A stretch of 5,082 nucleotides of DNA from Anaerolineales bacterium (lineage in GTDB: Bacteria > Chloroflexota > Anaerolineae > Anaerolineales > UBA6663), in assembly GCA_016789245.1 (NCBI GenBank), contig JAEURM010000163.1, positions 1 through 5,082 of the forward strand. The letters are read 5' to 3'. The translations under genes and the position numbers were made by a program. Within the stretch, counting starts at the first letter, position 1, and each line of letters starts with the position of its first letter. A model generated the notes under the pieces. It searched no databases. It had not been told where the DNA came from and saw only the letters and a program-made list of their open reading frames with translations. This document shows, piece by piece, positions 3 through 5,082 of this stretch.

Positions 3-773
3 AACGCCCTCTTGGTGGAGCGGCTCAATCAATCGCGCCGCATGGCAGAGGATGCCAGCCGCCTCAAAAGTGAATTTTTAGCTAACACCTCGCACGAATT
101 ACGCACACCGCTCACGGGCATTCTTGGCTCACTCAGCCTCATTCTCAACGATGAATGCGAAACCACTGAAGAAGCCAAACAGTTTGCCCAAATTGCGTAT
201 GACTCCGCCCGCAACCTACTGACCATTGTGAATGATTTGCTGGATGTGGCCAAGATTGAAGCCGGCAAGATGAACGTGCAGTTGCAGTTGATTGAAGTTT
301 CATCTCTGCTGGCGGAGGTGTACATGCTCATGTTCACTACCGCCAGCCGCAAGAACTTAGAGCTGAGAATACCCACCCTATCTGAGCCGGTGTACGTGTG
401 GGCCGATACCGAAAAGCTCAAACAGATTTTGATTAATCTCATCGGTAACGCCATCAAATTCACTGAAAAGGGCCACGTCCGAGTTGAAGTAAACGTGGAT
501 ACGCCGCACGTTCACATTTTGGTAATTGATACGGGCATTGGCATTCCGCTGGAAAAGCAAACCCAACTCTTCCGGCCATTTGTACAAGTGGATGGCACCA
601 CCACCCGCCGGTATGGTGGCACCGGGTTGGGCCTCAGCATCTCCCGCAGTTTGGTGCAACTACTCGGCGGCACCATCTCGCTGGAAAGTGAAGGTGAAGG
701 CCACGGCAGTACGTTCACCATTACCTTGCATCACGCAGATCCCGAGTCACAAGTTGCGCCCAAGTTCGCGTGA
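3..773 (+). CDS. Sensor histidine kinase, C-terminal part (5' truncated by window edge)
   Basis: Two-component sensor kinase that autophosphorylates on histidine and passes the phosphate to a response regulator. The reading frame is open to the left edge (N-A-L-L-V-E-R-L...), so the TTG at base 12 is not the real start and the sensor part lies outside the window. Counting residues from that TTG codon, a charged helix leads into a HisKA domain with H-box SHELRTPL (phospho-acceptor His28). The HATPase_c domain follows: N-box around Asn146, G1 box DTGIGIP (173-179), F-box LFRPF (186-190) and G2 box GGTGLGLS (202-209). All catalytic boxes are intact. The protein stops about 13 residues after the ATPase domain, so there is no C-terminal receiver or HPt domain. 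The H-box style resembles the HisKA kinases found in hybrid sensors. No response regulator gene follows; any partner lies upstream or elsewhere, and the signal cannot be inferred. Confidence 0.95.
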   Translation, partial: NALLVERLNQSRRMAEDASRLKSEFLANTSHELRTPLTGILGSLSLILNDECETTEEAKQFAQIAYDSARNLLTIVNDLLDVAKIEAGKMNVQLQLIEVSSLLAEVYMLMFTTASRKNLELRIPTLSEPVYVWADTEKLKQILINLIGNAIKFTEKGHVRVEVNVDTPHVHILVIDTGIGIPLEKQTQLFRPFVQVDGTTTRRYGGTGLGLSISRSLVQLLGGTISLESEGEGHGSTFTITLHHADPESQVAPKFA

Positions 774-825: not shown

Positions 826-835
826 ACAATTGTAT
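824..835. repeat. 12-base perfect palindrome overlapping the rarA start codon
   Basis: ATACAATTGTAT reads the same on both strands and covers the space between the candidate -10 box and the first two bases of the rarA ATG. A dimeric repressor bound here would block transcription initiation, so it could be an operator. It does not match the LexA boxes I know from other phyla. An AT-rich 12-base palindrome can also arise by chance in promoter DNA, so the regulatory role is only a possibility. Confidence 0.35.
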
Positions 836-2240
836 GGATTTGTTTGATTATGGCCTGAAACAACGCCAGAACACAGAAGCGCCGCTGGCCGCGCGTTTGC
901 GCCCGCGCACGCTGGATGAGTTTATTGGGCAGGAGGCGATTGTGGGCGAGGGCCGGCTTCTGCGCCGCGCCATTCAGGCTGACCGGCTGTTTTCTTCTAT
1001 TTTGCTGTGGGGGCCGCCCGGCACTGGCAAAACCACACTGGCCCAAATTATTGCCAACACCACGCGTGCGCATTTCACCTCGCTCAATGCTGTATTAGCC
1101 GGCATTGCGGAATTGCGCGTGGTGATTGCGGAAGCCAAAGAGCGCCGGAAATTGCACGGCACCCGCACCATTTTGTTTGTGGATGAAGTGCACCGTTGGA
1201 ACAAAGCGCAACAAGATGCGCTTCTGCCGCATGTGGAAGACGGTTCTATTATTTTGATTGGGGCCACCACCGAAAATCCATACTTTGAAGTGATTGGCGC
1301 GCTGGTTTCGCGCTCACGCATTTTTCAATTGCAGGCGTTGGGTGAGGCAGAAGTGGCCCGCATTTTGGAGCATGCGCTAACGGATAAAGAGCGTGGGTAC
1401 GGCACGCGCCGGATTGCTTTACAGGCGGATGCCCGGCAACATCTCACCAGCATCGCGGGTGGTGATGCGCGCAACGCGCTCAATGCGCTGGAACTCGCCG
1501 TTGAAACCACGCCGCCGGATGCCGAGGGCGTAATTCACATCACACTAGATGTGGCGCAAGAAAGCATTCAACGGCGGGCGGTGCTGTACGATAAAGATGG
1601 CGACGCGCACTACGATACCATTTCGGCATTCATCAAGTCGGTGCGCGGCTCGGACCCCGACGCGGCGCTGTACTGGCTGGCCAAGATGCTGTACGCCGGT
1701 GAGAGTCCGCGCTTCATCTTGCGCCGCTTGGTAATTTTGGCTGGCGAGGATATTGGCTTGGCCGACCCGCTGGGGTTGGTGGTGGCCAGCGCGGCGGTGC
1801 AAGCATTTGAGTTCATTGGCATGCCGGAGGGCATCTTCCCCATTGTGGAGGCCACGCTGTACTTGGCCACCGCGCCCAAGAGCAACACCACCACGGCGTA
1901 CTTCAAAGCGTTTGAGAAAGTGGAAGCCGAGGGCAAGGTGGATGTGCCCCGCCACTTGCAAGATGCCAACCGGGATGCGAAAGGGCTGGGCCACGGTGAG
2001 GGCTACGTTTACCCGCATGAGCAACCCGGCCACCACGCCGGCCAGCAGTATTTGCCCACCGCGCTCCTCGGCACATATTTTTACGCGCCCTCGGTGGAAG
2101 GTTATGAAGCTAGCGTGAAAGACCGTTTAGCACGTTGGCGCGCCGCGCAAGAAAAAGCGCTGGGGCTCACACAAACCACCATTCTGCCAGAACTCTCCGA
2201 AGATTTGATTACGCAACTCAAACGCCGCGCGGCGCGGTGA
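834..2240 (+). CDS. rarA: Replication-associated recombination protein A (RarA/MgsA), AAA+ ATPase
   Basis: RarA (MgsA; Mgs1/WRNIP1 in eukaryotes) is a clamp-loader-like AAA+ ATPase that acts at stalled replication forks and single-strand gaps in the cytoplasm. The 468-residue product is close to the family length (about 450). Visible features in order: N-terminal PLAARLRPRTLDEFIGQE (17-34), Walker A GPPGTGKT (60-67), Walker B and DEVH box FVDEVH followed by RWNKAQQDALLPHVE (115-135), sensor 1 GATTEN (143-148), SRSR (159-162), sensor 2 region GGDARNALNALE (209-220), then the MgsA C-terminal oligomerisation domain (about 250-440) with LYDKDGDAHYDTISAFIKS and RRLVILAGEDIGLADP. The ATG start is supported by the typical MDLFD N-terminus, although no ribosome binding site precedes it. 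All catalytic motifs are intact. It lies 60 bases after the kinase gene and 52 bases before the phosphatase gene, on the same strand; co-transcription is possible but not shown. Confidence 0.97.
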   Translation: MDLFDYGLKQRQNTEAPLAARLRPRTLDEFIGQEAIVGEGRLLRRAIQADRLFSSILLWGPPGTGKTTLAQIIANTTRAHFTSLNAVLAGIAELRVVIAEAKERRKLHGTRTILFVDEVHRWNKAQQDALLPHVEDGSIILIGATTENPYFEVIGALVSRSRIFQLQALGEAEVARILEHALTDKERGYGTRRIALQADARQHLTSIAGGDARNALNALELAVETTPPDAEGVIHITLDVAQESIQRRAVLYDKDGDAHYDTISAFIKSVRGSDPDAALYWLAKMLYAGESPRFILRRLVILAGEDIGLADPLGLVVASAAVQAFEFIGMPEGIFPIVEATLYLATAPKSNTTTAYFKAFEKVEAEGKVDVPRHLQDANRDAKGLGHGEGYVYPHEQPGHHAGQQYLPTALLGTYFYAPSVEGYEASVKDRLARWRAAQEKALGLTQTTILPELSEDLITQLKRRAAR

Positions 2241-2292: not shown

Positions 2293-2928
2293 ATGACCAT
2301 TCTGCTACTCATCCGCCACGGAGAAAATGAATATACGCGCACTGGCAAACTGGCCGGCTGGACGCCCGGCGTAAGTTTGAACGCGGCTGGCCAAAAACAA
2401 GCGCAAGCTTTGGCCGAGAAACTTAAAGCCGCACCATTGGTGGCCGTGTATTCCAGCCCGTTGGAGCGCGCGCGTGAAACCGCCGCCCCGCTGGCCGCCG
2501 CCAAGAATTTAGAAGTGCAGATTTTGGAGGGCGTGGGTGAAGTGAAGTATGGCGAGTGGCAGGGAAAAAGTTTGAAGCGGCTGGCCCGCACCAAACTGTG
2601 GCGCACGGTGCAGGGCTTGCCCAGCGCCATGCAGTTCCCCGATGGGGAAACTTTCCGGCAGGTGCAGTTCCGCGCGGTGGAGGCGCTGGAGGGCGTGGTG
2701 AAAGCGCACCCTAAGGAAATGGTGGCCGTGTTTTCGCACGGCGATGTAATTAAGTTGGCCGTGGCCCACTACCTCGGCCTACCGTTGGATATGTTTCAGC
2801 GGGTGATGATTAATACGGCATCAATCTCTATACTGCGTTTAGGCCATGGGCATCCGGCTTTGGTAAAATTGAATGATACAACGGGCGTTGAAGTGGCCGC
2901 TAAACCAAAGCCTGCCAAAAAGAAATAA
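2293..2928 (+). CDS. Histidine phosphatase superfamily protein (phosphoglycerate-mutase-like, MSMEG_4193/TIGR03848 type)
   Basis: Phosphatase or phosphomutase of the histidine phosphatase (branch 1) fold, which works through a phospho-histidine intermediate; cytoplasmic, substrate unknown. In the 211-residue product, LLLIRHGENEYT carries the nucleophile His9 with Arg8. SSPLERARET (54-63) carries Arg59. VGEVKYGEWQGK (81-92) supplies the likely acid Glu83. VFSHGDVIK (146-154) carries the second catalytic His149. All four pocket positions are present, so it should be active. The GKLAGWTPGVSLN segment after the RHG motif matches the MSMEG_4193-type family rather than true glycolytic mutases. The C-terminus is a Lys/Pro-rich tail (about 204-211), probably disordered. 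It is followed 45 bases later by the DUF3090 gene; in Mycobacterium the equivalent pair, as I recall, is Rv2135c-Rv2134c. The family assignment is strong; the reaction is not established. Confidence 0.9.
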   Translation: MTILLLIRHGENEYTRTGKLAGWTPGVSLNAAGQKQAQALAEKLKAAPLVAVYSSPLERARETAAPLAAAKNLEVQILEGVGEVKYGEWQGKSLKRLARTKLWRTVQGLPSAMQFPDGETFRQVQFRAVEALEGVVKAHPKEMVAVFSHGDVIKLAVAHYLGLPLDMFQRVMINTASISILRLGHGHPALVKLNDTTGVEVAAKPKPAKKK

Positions 2929-2973
2929 CGCCGCACCGCTTTCTTAACCAACTGTCTTTTCACAATACATTCA

Positions 2974-3501
2974 ATGGCTGGCACGATTTACGAACTCGAC
3001 CCAGTTTCATCCATCACCACTGGTTATATTGGCCAGCCGGGCAAACGCGTATTCTATTTGCAGGCCGCGCGTGAGGACCAAACCGTGACGCTGGTAATTG
3101 AAAAGATGCAGGTGGATGTGCTGGCGCAAAGCATTCAGCAGTTTATGGATGAGCTAAAAGAGCAATTTCCCAACCTGCCGGAGGCCACGCTCAACTACCG
3201 GCCCGAGCGCATGCATTTGCGCGTGCCGCTAGACCCGGCCTTCCGCGTGGGGCAATTGGGCTTGGGCTATGACTCTGACCGCGATTTGATTTTGCTGGTG
3301 GCGCAAGAAGTAACCACCGATGAGCGCACCGATGAAGAGGCCAGTGTGGCGCGTTTGTTTGCCACGCGCGCCCAAATGCTCACTTTGGCTGAGCACAGCA
3401 AATCCATCATCAAGCAAGGCCGCCCCATTTGCGCGTTCTGCGGCCAACCCGTAGACCCGGAAGGGCACTTCTGCCCGCGCCGGAATGGGCACAAATACTA
3501 G
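2974..3501 (+). CDS. DUF3090 / TIGR03847 family protein with C-terminal Cys/His knuckle
   Basis: Function unknown. The 175-residue product matches the DUF3090 pattern. An N-terminal YELDPVSSITTGYIGQPGKR segment is followed by VFYLQA (26-31) and a helix with VIEKMQVDVLAQ (41-52). The middle is mixed beta/alpha with VGQLGLGYD (92-100) and LILLVAQE (105-112). The C-terminus is C-x2-C-G-x-P-x-D-P-x-G-H-x-C-P-R-x-N-G-H (Cys153, Cys156, His165, Cys167, His173). These residues could hold one zinc ion, but binding is not shown. There is no signal peptide or membrane segment. The ATG has no Shine-Dalgarno site; CACAAT at 2961-2966 is a weak -10-like match that would again give a nearly leaderless message. 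It lies between the phosphatase and the kinase-like gene, in the order I recall from actinobacteria, which suggests it works with them. Confidence 0.9.
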   Translation: MAGTIYELDPVSSITTGYIGQPGKRVFYLQAAREDQTVTLVIEKMQVDVLAQSIQQFMDELKEQFPNLPEATLNYRPERMHLRVPLDPAFRVGQLGLGYDSDRDLILLVAQEVTTDERTDEEASVARLFATRAQMLTLAEHSKSIIKQGRPICAFCGQPVDPEGHFCPRRNGHKY

Positions 3502-3503
3502 AA

Positions 3504-3603
3504 GTGTCATGTGCCAAGGTGTCAAAGTGTCGCTCCGCCACAGCGAGGGCGCTCGGCCTTTGCGGTAGGACACTCCAACACCTGACACTTTGACACCAAT
3601 CAC
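3504..3603. repeat. Inverted array of GTGTCAAA-like octamers with 14-base perfect inverted repeat
   Basis: GGTGTCAAAGTGTC at 3518-3531 is exactly inverted as GACACTTTGACACC at 3584-3597. Each arm is part of a short run of degenerate 7-8-base units: GTGTCAT, GTGCCAAG, GTGTCAAA, GTGTCGCT on the left, and the reverse forms (GACACTCC, AACACCT, GACACTTT, GACACC) on the right. The 52-base GC-rich centre can fold into small inner hairpins (CCGC with GCGG; AGCG with CGCT). The element fills nearly the whole gap between the DUF3090 and kinase-like genes and contains no gene. It may be a REP- or MITE-like dispersed element, or an RNA hairpin that modulates read-through. No T-tract follows, so it is not a standard terminator. 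Confidence 0.75.
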
Positions 3604-3613
3604 CAAAGCATTT

Positions 3614-4345
3614 ATGCCTAATCAAGCCATTAGCTGGAACGCCATGCTGGAGATTTTGCGTGATGGCAAACTGCACTTGGAAGGCTTGCTCCCCAATGGC
3701 TCTAACTACACCTTTCTGGCGCGGGTAGCACACAAAAACCAAACGGCGTTTGCCGTATATAAACCCATTAAGGGTGAACAGCCACTGTGGGATTTTCCTG
3801 AAAACACGCTGGCTTTCCGCGAGGTGGCGGCCTTTGTGGTGAGTGATGCGCTGGGGTGGGATTTTGTGCCACCCACACTGTATCGCACCGAAGGCCCGCA
3901 CGGCGCTGGCTCATTACAATTTTTTGTGCAGGCCGAGCCGGACTTTCACTACTTTCAGGCCACTGAGGCAGACCAGCCAGAGATGCGGCGCACGGCAGTG
4001 TTTGATTTGATTGTGAATAATGCTGACCGCAAAGGCGGGCATGTGCTGAAAGATACCAGCGGCAAAATTTGGCTGATTGATCACGGCATTTGCTTTCACG
4101 CGCAAAACAAACTGCGCACCGTGATTTGGGATTACGCGGGTGAGCCTATTCCACAAGATATTTTGCAAGATGTGGAAGCGTTTTATACCAACTTGGAATG
4201 TGAGGAAGAGCTAAAAGCCGCCCTCAACGCCTTGCTAGACCCGCTAGAAGTGGCCGCCCTGCGCCGCCGCACAGACCGAATTTTGACGAGCAAAGTTTTC
4301 CCCAACCCCGGTACGCGGCGCAGTTACCCGTGGCCGCCGGTGTAG
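3614..4345 (+). CDS. SCO1664/TIGR03843 family protein with PI3/PI4-kinase-like active site
   Basis: Predicted soluble phosphotransferase of unknown substrate, 243 residues. The fold assignment comes from motifs: VYKP with the likely ATP-binding Lys50; LAFREVAAF (67-75); a catalytic-loop-like DLIVNNADRKGGH (131-143, Asp138); and a metal-binding-loop-like WLIDHGICFH (153-162, Asp156). These parallel the DRHxxN and IDFG motifs of PI3/PI4 kinases, with His143 in place of the usual Asn and His157 in place of Phe. LRTVIWDYAGEPIP (167-180) is typical of this family, which is known mainly from Actinobacteria and Chloroflexota. The ATG at 3614 is preferred: an upstream in-frame TTG at 3590 lies inside the inverted repeat, and the family's LEILRDGKL segment follows at the expected distance. 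An ATG at 3644 is a less likely alternative. No Shine-Dalgarno site is visible. It is the last gene of the three-gene set and converges on modB. Confidence 0.88.
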   Translation: MPNQAISWNAMLEILRDGKLHLEGLLPNGSNYTFLARVAHKNQTAFAVYKPIKGEQPLWDFPENTLAFREVAAFVVSDALGWDFVPPTLYRTEGPHGAGSLQFFVQAEPDFHYFQATEADQPEMRRTAVFDLIVNNADRKGGHVLKDTSGKIWLIDHGICFHAQNKLRTVIWDYAGEPIPQDILQDVEAFYTNLECEEELKAALNALLDPLEVAALRRRTDRILTSKVFPNPGTRRSYPWPPV

Positions 4346-4436
4346 CCCCACCCTTCCCTCCCTATGGCGCTCAACTTTTTGTAATCCAATCAAGCGCCAA
4401 AAGCGCGATTGCGAGGACACGAAGCGGATGGGGCTA
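4343..4436. repeat. Inverted repeat spanning the convergent intergenic region, with an inner stem-loop
   Basis: TAGCCCCA (4343-4350) and TGGGGCTA (4429-4436) are exact inverted copies. The first contains the TAG stop of the kinase-like gene, and the second contains the TAG stop of modB read on the minus strand. Inside, TGGCGCT (4365-4371) pairs with AGCGCCA (4393-4399) around a 21-base loop. A structure of this sort could act as a bidirectional transcription end between convergent genes, but neither strand has a clear T-tract after the stem. Intrinsic termination is therefore unproven. Confidence 0.4.
4408..4427 (+). repeat. Possible degenerate REP-like fragment
   Basis: ATTGCGAGGACACGAAGCGG resembles, from memory, the left part of a short palindromic repeat common between genes in several phyla (ATTGCGAGGAGCGAAGCG followed by a CAATC return arm). 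The expected return arm is missing, so if related it is a decayed or partial copy. The resemblance is by recall only. Confidence 0.25.
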
Positions 4437-5082
4437 TCTCCACTCTCGGTGAAGCAGGCCTTTCACCACCAGCAACGCCAGAAAAGATAAGCCGATTAAA
4501 ACTAGCGAGAGGGTGAGGGCCACATCCACGCTTAACTCTAGGCCGAGGTAAATGGCGAGCGGCATGGTTTGCGTGCGGCCTGTAAAGTTTCCGGCAAAGA
4601 TGATGGTGGCCCCAAACTCACCCAACGCGCGCGCCCACGTCATCACCGCGCCGCCCAACACCGCGCTCCATGCCAGCGGGGCCGTGATGTAACGGAAAAT
4701 TTTCCAACGGCTTGCGCCATCTAGCGCGGCGGCTTGTTGCAATTCTTCATCCACAGCCGCAAAACCCGCCGCCGCCGATTTGATGTAGAACGGCGCGGCC
4801 ACAAACACTTGCGCTAGCACCACGGCTAGCGGCGTAAACGCAAGCGTGATGCCTAAATCGGCCAGCGGCGCGCCCACACTACCCCGCCGCCCAAACGCTA
4901 ACAGCAACGCCAACCCGGCCACTGCCGGCGGCAGAACAGCGGGCAAATCAATCAACGTGTCTAAGATTCTTTTAAAGCGCAGATTTTTGCGGGCCAGCAC
5001 CAAGCTGAGCGGCGTGCCGAACGTCACCACCAAACTGGTTGAAATGAGTGAAGTGCTGAGGCTAATGCCAATGGCTTGCAGA
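4434..5082 (-). CDS. modB: Molybdate/tungstate ABC transporter permease ModB (N-terminus beyond window edge)
   Basis: Inner-membrane channel subunit of a molybdate (possibly tungstate) importer, working with a binding protein ModA and an ATPase ModC. The frame stays open to the right edge: residues LQAIGISLSTSLISTSL precede the TTG codon at 5033-5031, so that codon is internal. Of 215 visible residues, hydrophobic segments lie near 1-28, 47-63, 77-100, 134-156 and 184-206. The cytoplasmic EAA loop (QQAAALDGASRWKIF, about 115-129, then ITAP) contacts the ATPase. The segment GEFGATIIFAGNFTGRTQT, followed by MPLAIY, is the ModB signature and separates it from sulfate permeases CysT/CysW. LPAVLPPAVAG (46-56) is also typical. 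The protein ends normally with HREWR. No ATPase gene follows; the next gene is convergent, so modC, if linked, must be upstream (right of the window), fused or elsewhere. Tungstate specificity cannot be excluded. Confidence 0.92.
   Translation of the reverse strand, partial: LQAIGISLSTSLISTSLVVTFGTPLSLVLARKNLRFKRILDTLIDLPAVLPPAVAGLALLLAFGRRGSVGAPLADLGITLAFTPLAVVLAQVFVAAPFYIKSAAAGFAAVDEELQQAAALDGASRWKIFRYITAPLAWSAVLGGAVMTWARALGEFGATIIFAGNFTGRTQTMPLAIYLGLELSVDVALTLSLVLIGLSFLALLVVKGLLHREWR

Follow-up and report, generated by a model that had tools for sequence, protein, structure and literature searches.

We describe a conserved three-gene module in a 5,082-nucleotide stretch of DNA from an Anaerolineales bacterium (contig JAEURM010000163.1 of assembly GCA_016789245.1; hereafter the window). 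The genes encode a histidine phosphatase (TIGR03848, the MSMEG_4193 family), a DUF3090 protein (TIGR03847) and a kinase with a fold like that of type II phosphatidylinositol 4-kinase (PI4K) (TIGR03843, the SCO1664 family) (Table 1). The trio may run a reversible-phosphorylation cycle in which DUF3090 is the shared binding subunit, a reading that we regard as plausible rather than probable; the core role of the module is probably something other than mycothiol synthesis. Profile searches bear out the family assignments that an earlier note had made from the letters of the window. The phosphatase scores 218.9 bits against TIGR03848 (curated NCBIfam cut-off, 203.85), DUF3090 scores 171.2 against TIGR03847 (117.25) and the kinase scores 282.3 against TIGR03843 (172.4). 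The corresponding Pfam scores are 182 for His_Phos_1 (cut-off, 21.7), 162.7 for DUF3090 (27) and 30.1 for PI3_PI4_kinase (27.1).

We surveyed the module in two ways: a scan with a kinase alignment, in which one genome per species was used and the best 80 of 594 relatives were retained, and even draws of 90 Actinomycetota and 111 Chloroflexota genomes. DUF3090 is present in 78 of the 80 kinase loci, and the genomes of the other two (L057 and L077) carry it elsewhere; the phosphatase is present in at least 56 of the 80, several loci ending at contig ends. The tightest unit of the module is the kinase–DUF3090 pair. In the Actinomycetota, 41 genomes have the kinase, 42 have DUF3090 and 41 have both, and the pair is adjacent in 41 of 41, with a gap of at most 254 bp. 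In the Chloroflexota, DUF3090 occurs in 72 genomes, the kinase in 59 (one weak match of 60 was left out) and both in 56 (Fisher P = 4e-13, with no phylogenetic correction). Forty of these 56 pairs lie within 1 kb, all on the same strand and with the kinase first in five; one is separated by 6 kb and 15 are on different contigs. Of the 111 Chloroflexota, 16 have a TIGR03848 phosphatase above the cut-off; in 15 of these, DUF3090 lies no more than 1 kb away. The conserved neighbourhood that the earlier note had described holds in the survey, with both genes of the pair in 41 of 42 Actinomycetota and 56 of 75 Chloroflexota that have either one.

The kinase active site, which the earlier note had called PI3/PI4-kinase-like, is intact (K50, E70, D138, H143 and D156) and is invariant across 83 of 83 sequences. 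Identity to PI4KII is 17–19%, and the fold class also holds the protein kinases Fam20, CtkA and HipA. The residue five positions after the catalytic Asp (D+5) is Asn in PI4KII and in classical kinases and Glu in Fam20C. This PI4KII feature is absent from the window kinase, which has His143 at the position; His is found there in 83 of 83 sequences. Rv2133c is only listed in the accessible text of one paper (PMC11754781).

The catalytic residues of the phosphatase are also intact (R8, H9, R59, E83 and H149). H149 is present in every one of 59 aligned sequences; E83 is shared by 57 of them, and R8, H9 and R59 by 55 each. The phosphatase and DUF3090 are fused in one reading frame at two loci, L061 and L054. 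The second of these (L054:6344-7904) has a tandem DUF3090 pair, one copy fused to the phosphatase and the other free, and the metal-type site described below is absent from both copies. The earlier note gives Rv2135c of Mycobacterium tuberculosis as the phosphatase of the mycobacterial module. The accessible text on this protein describes a tetrameric acid phosphatase without phosphoglycerate mutase activity. Its substrates are p-nitrophenyl phosphate (pNPP) and, with lower activity, phosphoenolpyruvate (PEP), glycerol-1-phosphate and fructose-6-phosphate, whereas it does not act on glucose-6-phosphate, adenosine diphosphate (ADP) or 3-phosphoglycerate (3-PGA); inositol phosphates are not among the substrates that it reports as tried (PMC3866925).

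In the structural model of DUF3090, residues 10–149 form a PUR/Whirly-like double repeat, and the tail after them carries a metal-type site. The PUR resemblance comes from a single aligner, at a sequence identity of 4–5%, and the model has no Foldseek match at E ≤ 0.001. In the tail, C153, C156, H165 and C167 are flanked by the invariant G149-R150 and N171, and this CxxC–HxC site is all-or-none: among 201 aligned rows, 182 have four ligands, 19 have zero and none is intermediate. Such a clip may bind a metal. The earlier note had drawn the tail as C-x2-C...H-x-C...H; the C-x2-C-x8-H-x-C part is conserved, whereas the last His (H173) is Y, R or absent in relatives and is no conserved ligand. 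Nine columns are invariant across 70 rows, including R25, E43, K44, R150 and N171, and the invariant Arg and Lys residues would be compatible with a phosphate or nucleic acid ligand. No Ser, Thr or Tyr column is invariant in these rows. Because DUF3090 has no invariant phospho-acceptor, we disfavour it as the substrate, although not strongly, and favour a binder.

All four ligands are substituted, with the loop length unchanged, in three loci from Brevefilum and an Anaerolineaceae metagenome-assembled genome (MAG) (L028, L029 and L051). The module kinase occurs with a DUF3090 that lacks the site in L068 and L075, from MAGs labelled Nitrospinota and Tectomicrobia; these kinases group with two Chloroflexota kinases (support, 85–86), and transfer or mis-binning is possible. 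In the searched literature, as far as its text is accessible, DUF3090 occurs only as a table or list entry. Rv2134c, the middle gene of the mycobacterial trio named in the earlier note, is listed among Mycobacterium bovis BCG mutants with changed fitness at rifampicin concentrations below the minimum inhibitory concentration (PMC11329110).

A second type of phosphatase occurs beside DUF3090. In five of the 16 Chloroflexota genomes with DUF3090 and no kinase match (L131–L135), DUF3090 is immediately followed by a phosphatase of the protein tyrosine phosphatase (PTP) or dual-specificity phosphatase type with a C-x5-R motif, and the listed database relatives of this protein include one from Candidatus Limnocylindria. 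Of 41 genomes drawn evenly from the class of one carrier, 11 have the PTP, and DUF3090 adjoins it in nine of the 11 loci. A kinase search that covered five of these nine genomes, but not the other four, gave no match. No PTP lies near the kinase in any of the 80 kinase loci. Because phosphatases of two folds occur beside DUF3090, phosphate removal there would matter more than the identity of the enzyme.

We infer that all proteins of the module act on one target, the candidates for which are weighed below, and that DUF3090 binds it. The TIGR03843 protein, as a kinase resembling type II PI4K and Fam20, would phosphorylate the target, and the TIGR03848 histidine phosphatase would remove that phosphate; in some genomes, the PTP-type phosphatase would take the place of the histidine phosphatase beside DUF3090. 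The target or its phosphorylated form would be held by DUF3090, whose modelled PUR/Whirly-like fold offers invariant Arg and Lys residues, together with a GR...N clip that in most sequences may be locked by the metal-type site. A more specific version is unlikely as a whole: that DUF3090 is a bacterial PUR-type binder with a removable metal lock, the ligand of which is switched by a dedicated kinase and interchangeable phosphatases of two folds, in a mycothiol-independent system common to Actinomycetota and Chloroflexota.

Several observations weigh against a phosphorylation cycle centred on DUF3090. At position 39 of DUF3090, 68 of 70 rows have Ser or Thr, a possible phospho-acceptor, and the PUR likeness comes from one aligner and has no Foldseek counterpart at the threshold given above. 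The L061 fusion could reflect a stop codon lost in a draft genome. No phosphatase lies within the flank in 24 of the 80 kinase loci (several contigs are short), no kinase match was found in 16 of the 72 Chloroflexota with DUF3090, and DUF3090 is missing from three of the 59 with the kinase. In 11 of the 16 genomes with DUF3090 and no kinase, the stretch around DUF3090 contains no kinase, PTP or histidine phosphatase. Replacement by the PTP is not class-wide, because the same class includes genomes with the kinase and DUF3090 (G045, G063, G072 and G081) and a locus in which the PTP has no DUF3090 beside it (L158). Finally, in the control genome of Corynebacterium glutamicum the kinase passes its cut-off and TIGR03848 is matched at E ≤ 1e-25, but DUF3090 has no match at E ≤ 0.001, so this gene can be absent as well.

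The main alternatives differ in the target. The earlier note had proposed one small molecule, perhaps an inositol or other polyol derivative, that the kinase would phosphorylate and the phosphatase dephosphorylate, which we consider improbable. In its favour, the fold of the kinase resembles that of type II PI4K most closely, inositol phosphates are substrates of some histidine phosphatases and PTP-like phytases, and the PTP matches PTPlike_phytase weakly, with scores short of the Pfam cut-off. Matches to ino1 occur in 103 of the 111 Chloroflexota, but their presence says little because the gene is near-universal in this sample. De novo inositol, in particular, is not favoured as the substrate, because seven of the eight genomes without an ino1 match retain the kinase and DUF3090; two of these seven (4.5 and 4.7 Mb) have the full trio, and some of the genomes without ino1 are small and may be incomplete. 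The polyol proposal is also weakened by the protein kinases in the same fold class and by the mycobacterial enzyme, for which, in the accessible text, glucose-6-phosphate was no substrate and activity on other small substrates was below that on pNPP, inositol phosphates not having been tried (PMC3866925). Alternatively, DUF3090 could be a PUR/Whirly-type binder of single-stranded nucleic acid, with the kinase and phosphatase setting its state or acting on nucleic acid ends. This is doubtful: the identity of 4–5% comes without a significant Foldseek match, a fold alone does not show function, and a RarA-type ATPase gene, the upstream neighbour in the window, recurs in a minority of the related kinase loci (10 of 80). 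There is a very slight chance that the neighbourhood is frozen, its adjacency being due to descent with no functional link. Gene order can outlast a shared task, and the pair is split between contigs in 15 of 56 Chloroflexota; however, adjacency is found in two phyla, including pairs with the kinase first (5 of 40), and DUF3090 can also have a phosphatase of a different fold as its neighbour.

The module might instead serve the product of a cysteine ligase, perhaps even with the histidine phosphatase as MshA2, the phosphatase of mycothiol synthesis, in mycothiol makers; we give this only a small chance. MshC is above its cut-off in eight of the 90 Actinomycetota, all eight have the module, and the kinase is within 1 kb in seven. 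However, 33 of the 41 module-bearing Actinomycetota have no MshC above the cut-off, and 25 have no match even at E ≤ 1e-95. MshC is likewise above the cut-off in none of the 111 Chloroflexota; the non-mycothiol core role proposed in the earlier note is supported by these counts. MshC-like ligases do accompany DUF3090 in Chloroflexota, with 50 carriers among the 72 DUF3090 genomes versus nine among the other 39 (counted by hits per genome, uncorrected for kinship and not all checked in a tree), but none of 18 such loci, of up to 19.5 kb each, contains DUF3090, the kinase or either phosphatase. Of the searched genomes, the one closest to the window (G001) has a single CysS/MshC-family match, which groups with ordinary CysS, and no MshC-like gene. 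mshC is a neighbour of the module in mycothiol-making actinomycetes, and the three proteins probably do not form a set of mycothiol enzymes.

Besides a normal CysS, many Chloroflexota encode a shorter ligase, mostly of about 400–450 codons, with scores of up to 408.7 bits against MshC; all are below the cut-off of 485.1. A branch with support of 100/100 in a 32-sequence tree separates seven of these short ligases, together with five actinobacterial MshC proteins, from 20 CysS-type sequences. Short-ligase loci include L086–L092 and L113–L130. An apparent cluster of shared neighbours in 15 of the 18 loci was rejected, because all 20 of its open reading frames (ORFs) are shadow ORFs that lie within the ligase gene, and other neighbours are shared by at most three of the 18. 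MshA is above its cut-off (462.5 bits) in none of the 111 Chloroflexota, and 66 have a match below the cut-off at E ≤ 1e-100. The earlier note's statement that mycothiol genes are absent can be made of the 5-kb window only and is too strong for the phylum, in which many genomes carry an MshC-related ligase. These ligases hint at a possible unknown low-molecular-weight thiol. Searches of the literature for mshC with Chloroflexi and for mycothiol with Chloroflexota returned nothing about mycothiol in Chloroflexota, as judged by titles and the beginnings of abstracts (including PMC2922099 and PMC12654796, a soil survey). In one Chloroflexota genome, DUF3090 and the kinase are about 1.3 kb away from a CysS match with an ordinary score (G051:C17:8018-11567).

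We know of no gene that has been identified as encoding MshA2, which is named without a locus number in the literature as far as it is accessible. Four loci (L161–L164; for example, L164:6321-9585) have a run of a histidine phosphatase, an unknown protein of 280–295 amino acids and an MshA-like glycosyltransferase, and the unknown protein of L162 has no Pfam or NCBIfam match. The pair of phosphatase and unknown protein recurs in L171–L173, without the glycosyltransferase in L171. The run phosphatases that were scanned are below the TIGR03848 cut-off (137.4 in L164 and 145.5 in L171), and nine phosphatases of this or a similar kind separate from 55 module phosphatases in a tree (support, 72). 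Because of these scores and this separate grouping, we do not assign the module phosphatase to MshA2. The L161–L164 run offers a starting point in the search for the phosphatase of mycothiol synthesis.

In the window, the module is flanked by genes outside it (Table 1). Homologues listed with an organism name are all from Anaerolineales, and the closest locus from a named genome among the best 80 of 594 relatives (L003, from G001) is from an Anaerolineales MAG, with a kinase identity of 57–58%. The hairpin between DUF3090 and the kinase has a fold z-score of −4.4 and was matched in stability by none of 200 shuffles; the alternative TTG start of the kinase is overlapped by its second arm, and the hairpin could be a mobile repeat or else a regulatory element. 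Homoserine dehydrogenase lies downstream of the kinase in 18 of the 80 loci (for example, L067:8361-9386); we took this to be a lineage feature and set it aside as a module partner.

Table 1. Positions of the module and of other features in the window
Feature	Position	Strand	Details
Histidine kinase, end portion of gene	3-773	+	
RarA/MgsA-type AAA+ ATPase	834-2240	+	Upstream, outside the module; Pfam/NCBIfam profile search
Histidine phosphatase of the trio, TIGR03848 (MSMEG_4193 family)	2293-2928	+	211 aa
DUF3090, TIGR03847	2974-3501	+	175 aa
C-x2-C-x8-H-x-C site of DUF3090	3430-3474	+	C153, C156, H165, C167
Intergenic hairpin, DUF3090/kinase	3518-3597 (arms 3518-3531 / 3584-3597)		Perfect 14-nt arms; within 3502-3597
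Alternative TTG start of the kinase	3590	+	Would give 251 aa
Kinase, TIGR03843 (SCO1664 family)	3614-4345	+	Type II PI4K-like fold; 243 aa from ATG
Catalytic loop DRKGGH of the kinase	4025-4042	+	His at D+5; D, R, K and H invariant in 83/83 sequences
Molybdate-type ABC (ATP-binding cassette) permease	4434-5081	-	After the trio

The TIGR03848, TIGR03847 and TIGR03843 families are curated and widespread. New here are the PUR/Whirly-like model of DUF3090, its all-or-none site, the PTP beside it and the MshC-related ligases of Chloroflexota, which point to perhaps unknown thiols in that phylum. With a module that mostly occurs without MshC in the sampled genomes, a second phosphatase fold and the modelled fold and site of DUF3090, these uncharacterised genes become a phosphorylation system that can be put to the test.

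According to the available text of a review (Chater and Chandra 2013, PMC4255298), SCO1664 is an actinobacterial signature protein with invariably close linkage to mycothiol genes. The window kinase belongs to the same family as this Streptomyces protein, and the actinomycete loci L001 and L002 have the phosphatase, DUF3090, the kinase and, downstream, mshC; in contrast, the window has no MshC, and the sampled Actinomycetota without MshC above the cut-off (33 of 41 carriers) correct the printed 'invariably'. The short ligases of Chloroflexota group with actinobacterial MshC and retain the HIGH-type and KMSKS motifs but score below the MshC cut-off, with no module gene at 18 of 18 loci. The phosphatase motif is RHA in Rv2135c and RHG in the window. 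DUF3090 differs from PUR-alpha and Whirly proteins by its additional metal-site tail, its likeness to them resting on a modelled fold at about 4% identity. The TIGR03843 kinase shares with type II PI4K, Fam20, CtkA and HipA the kinase fold and the retained Lys, Glu and two Asp residues, and it is set apart from type II PI4K and Fam20 by a His at D+5, where those enzymes have Asn or Glu.

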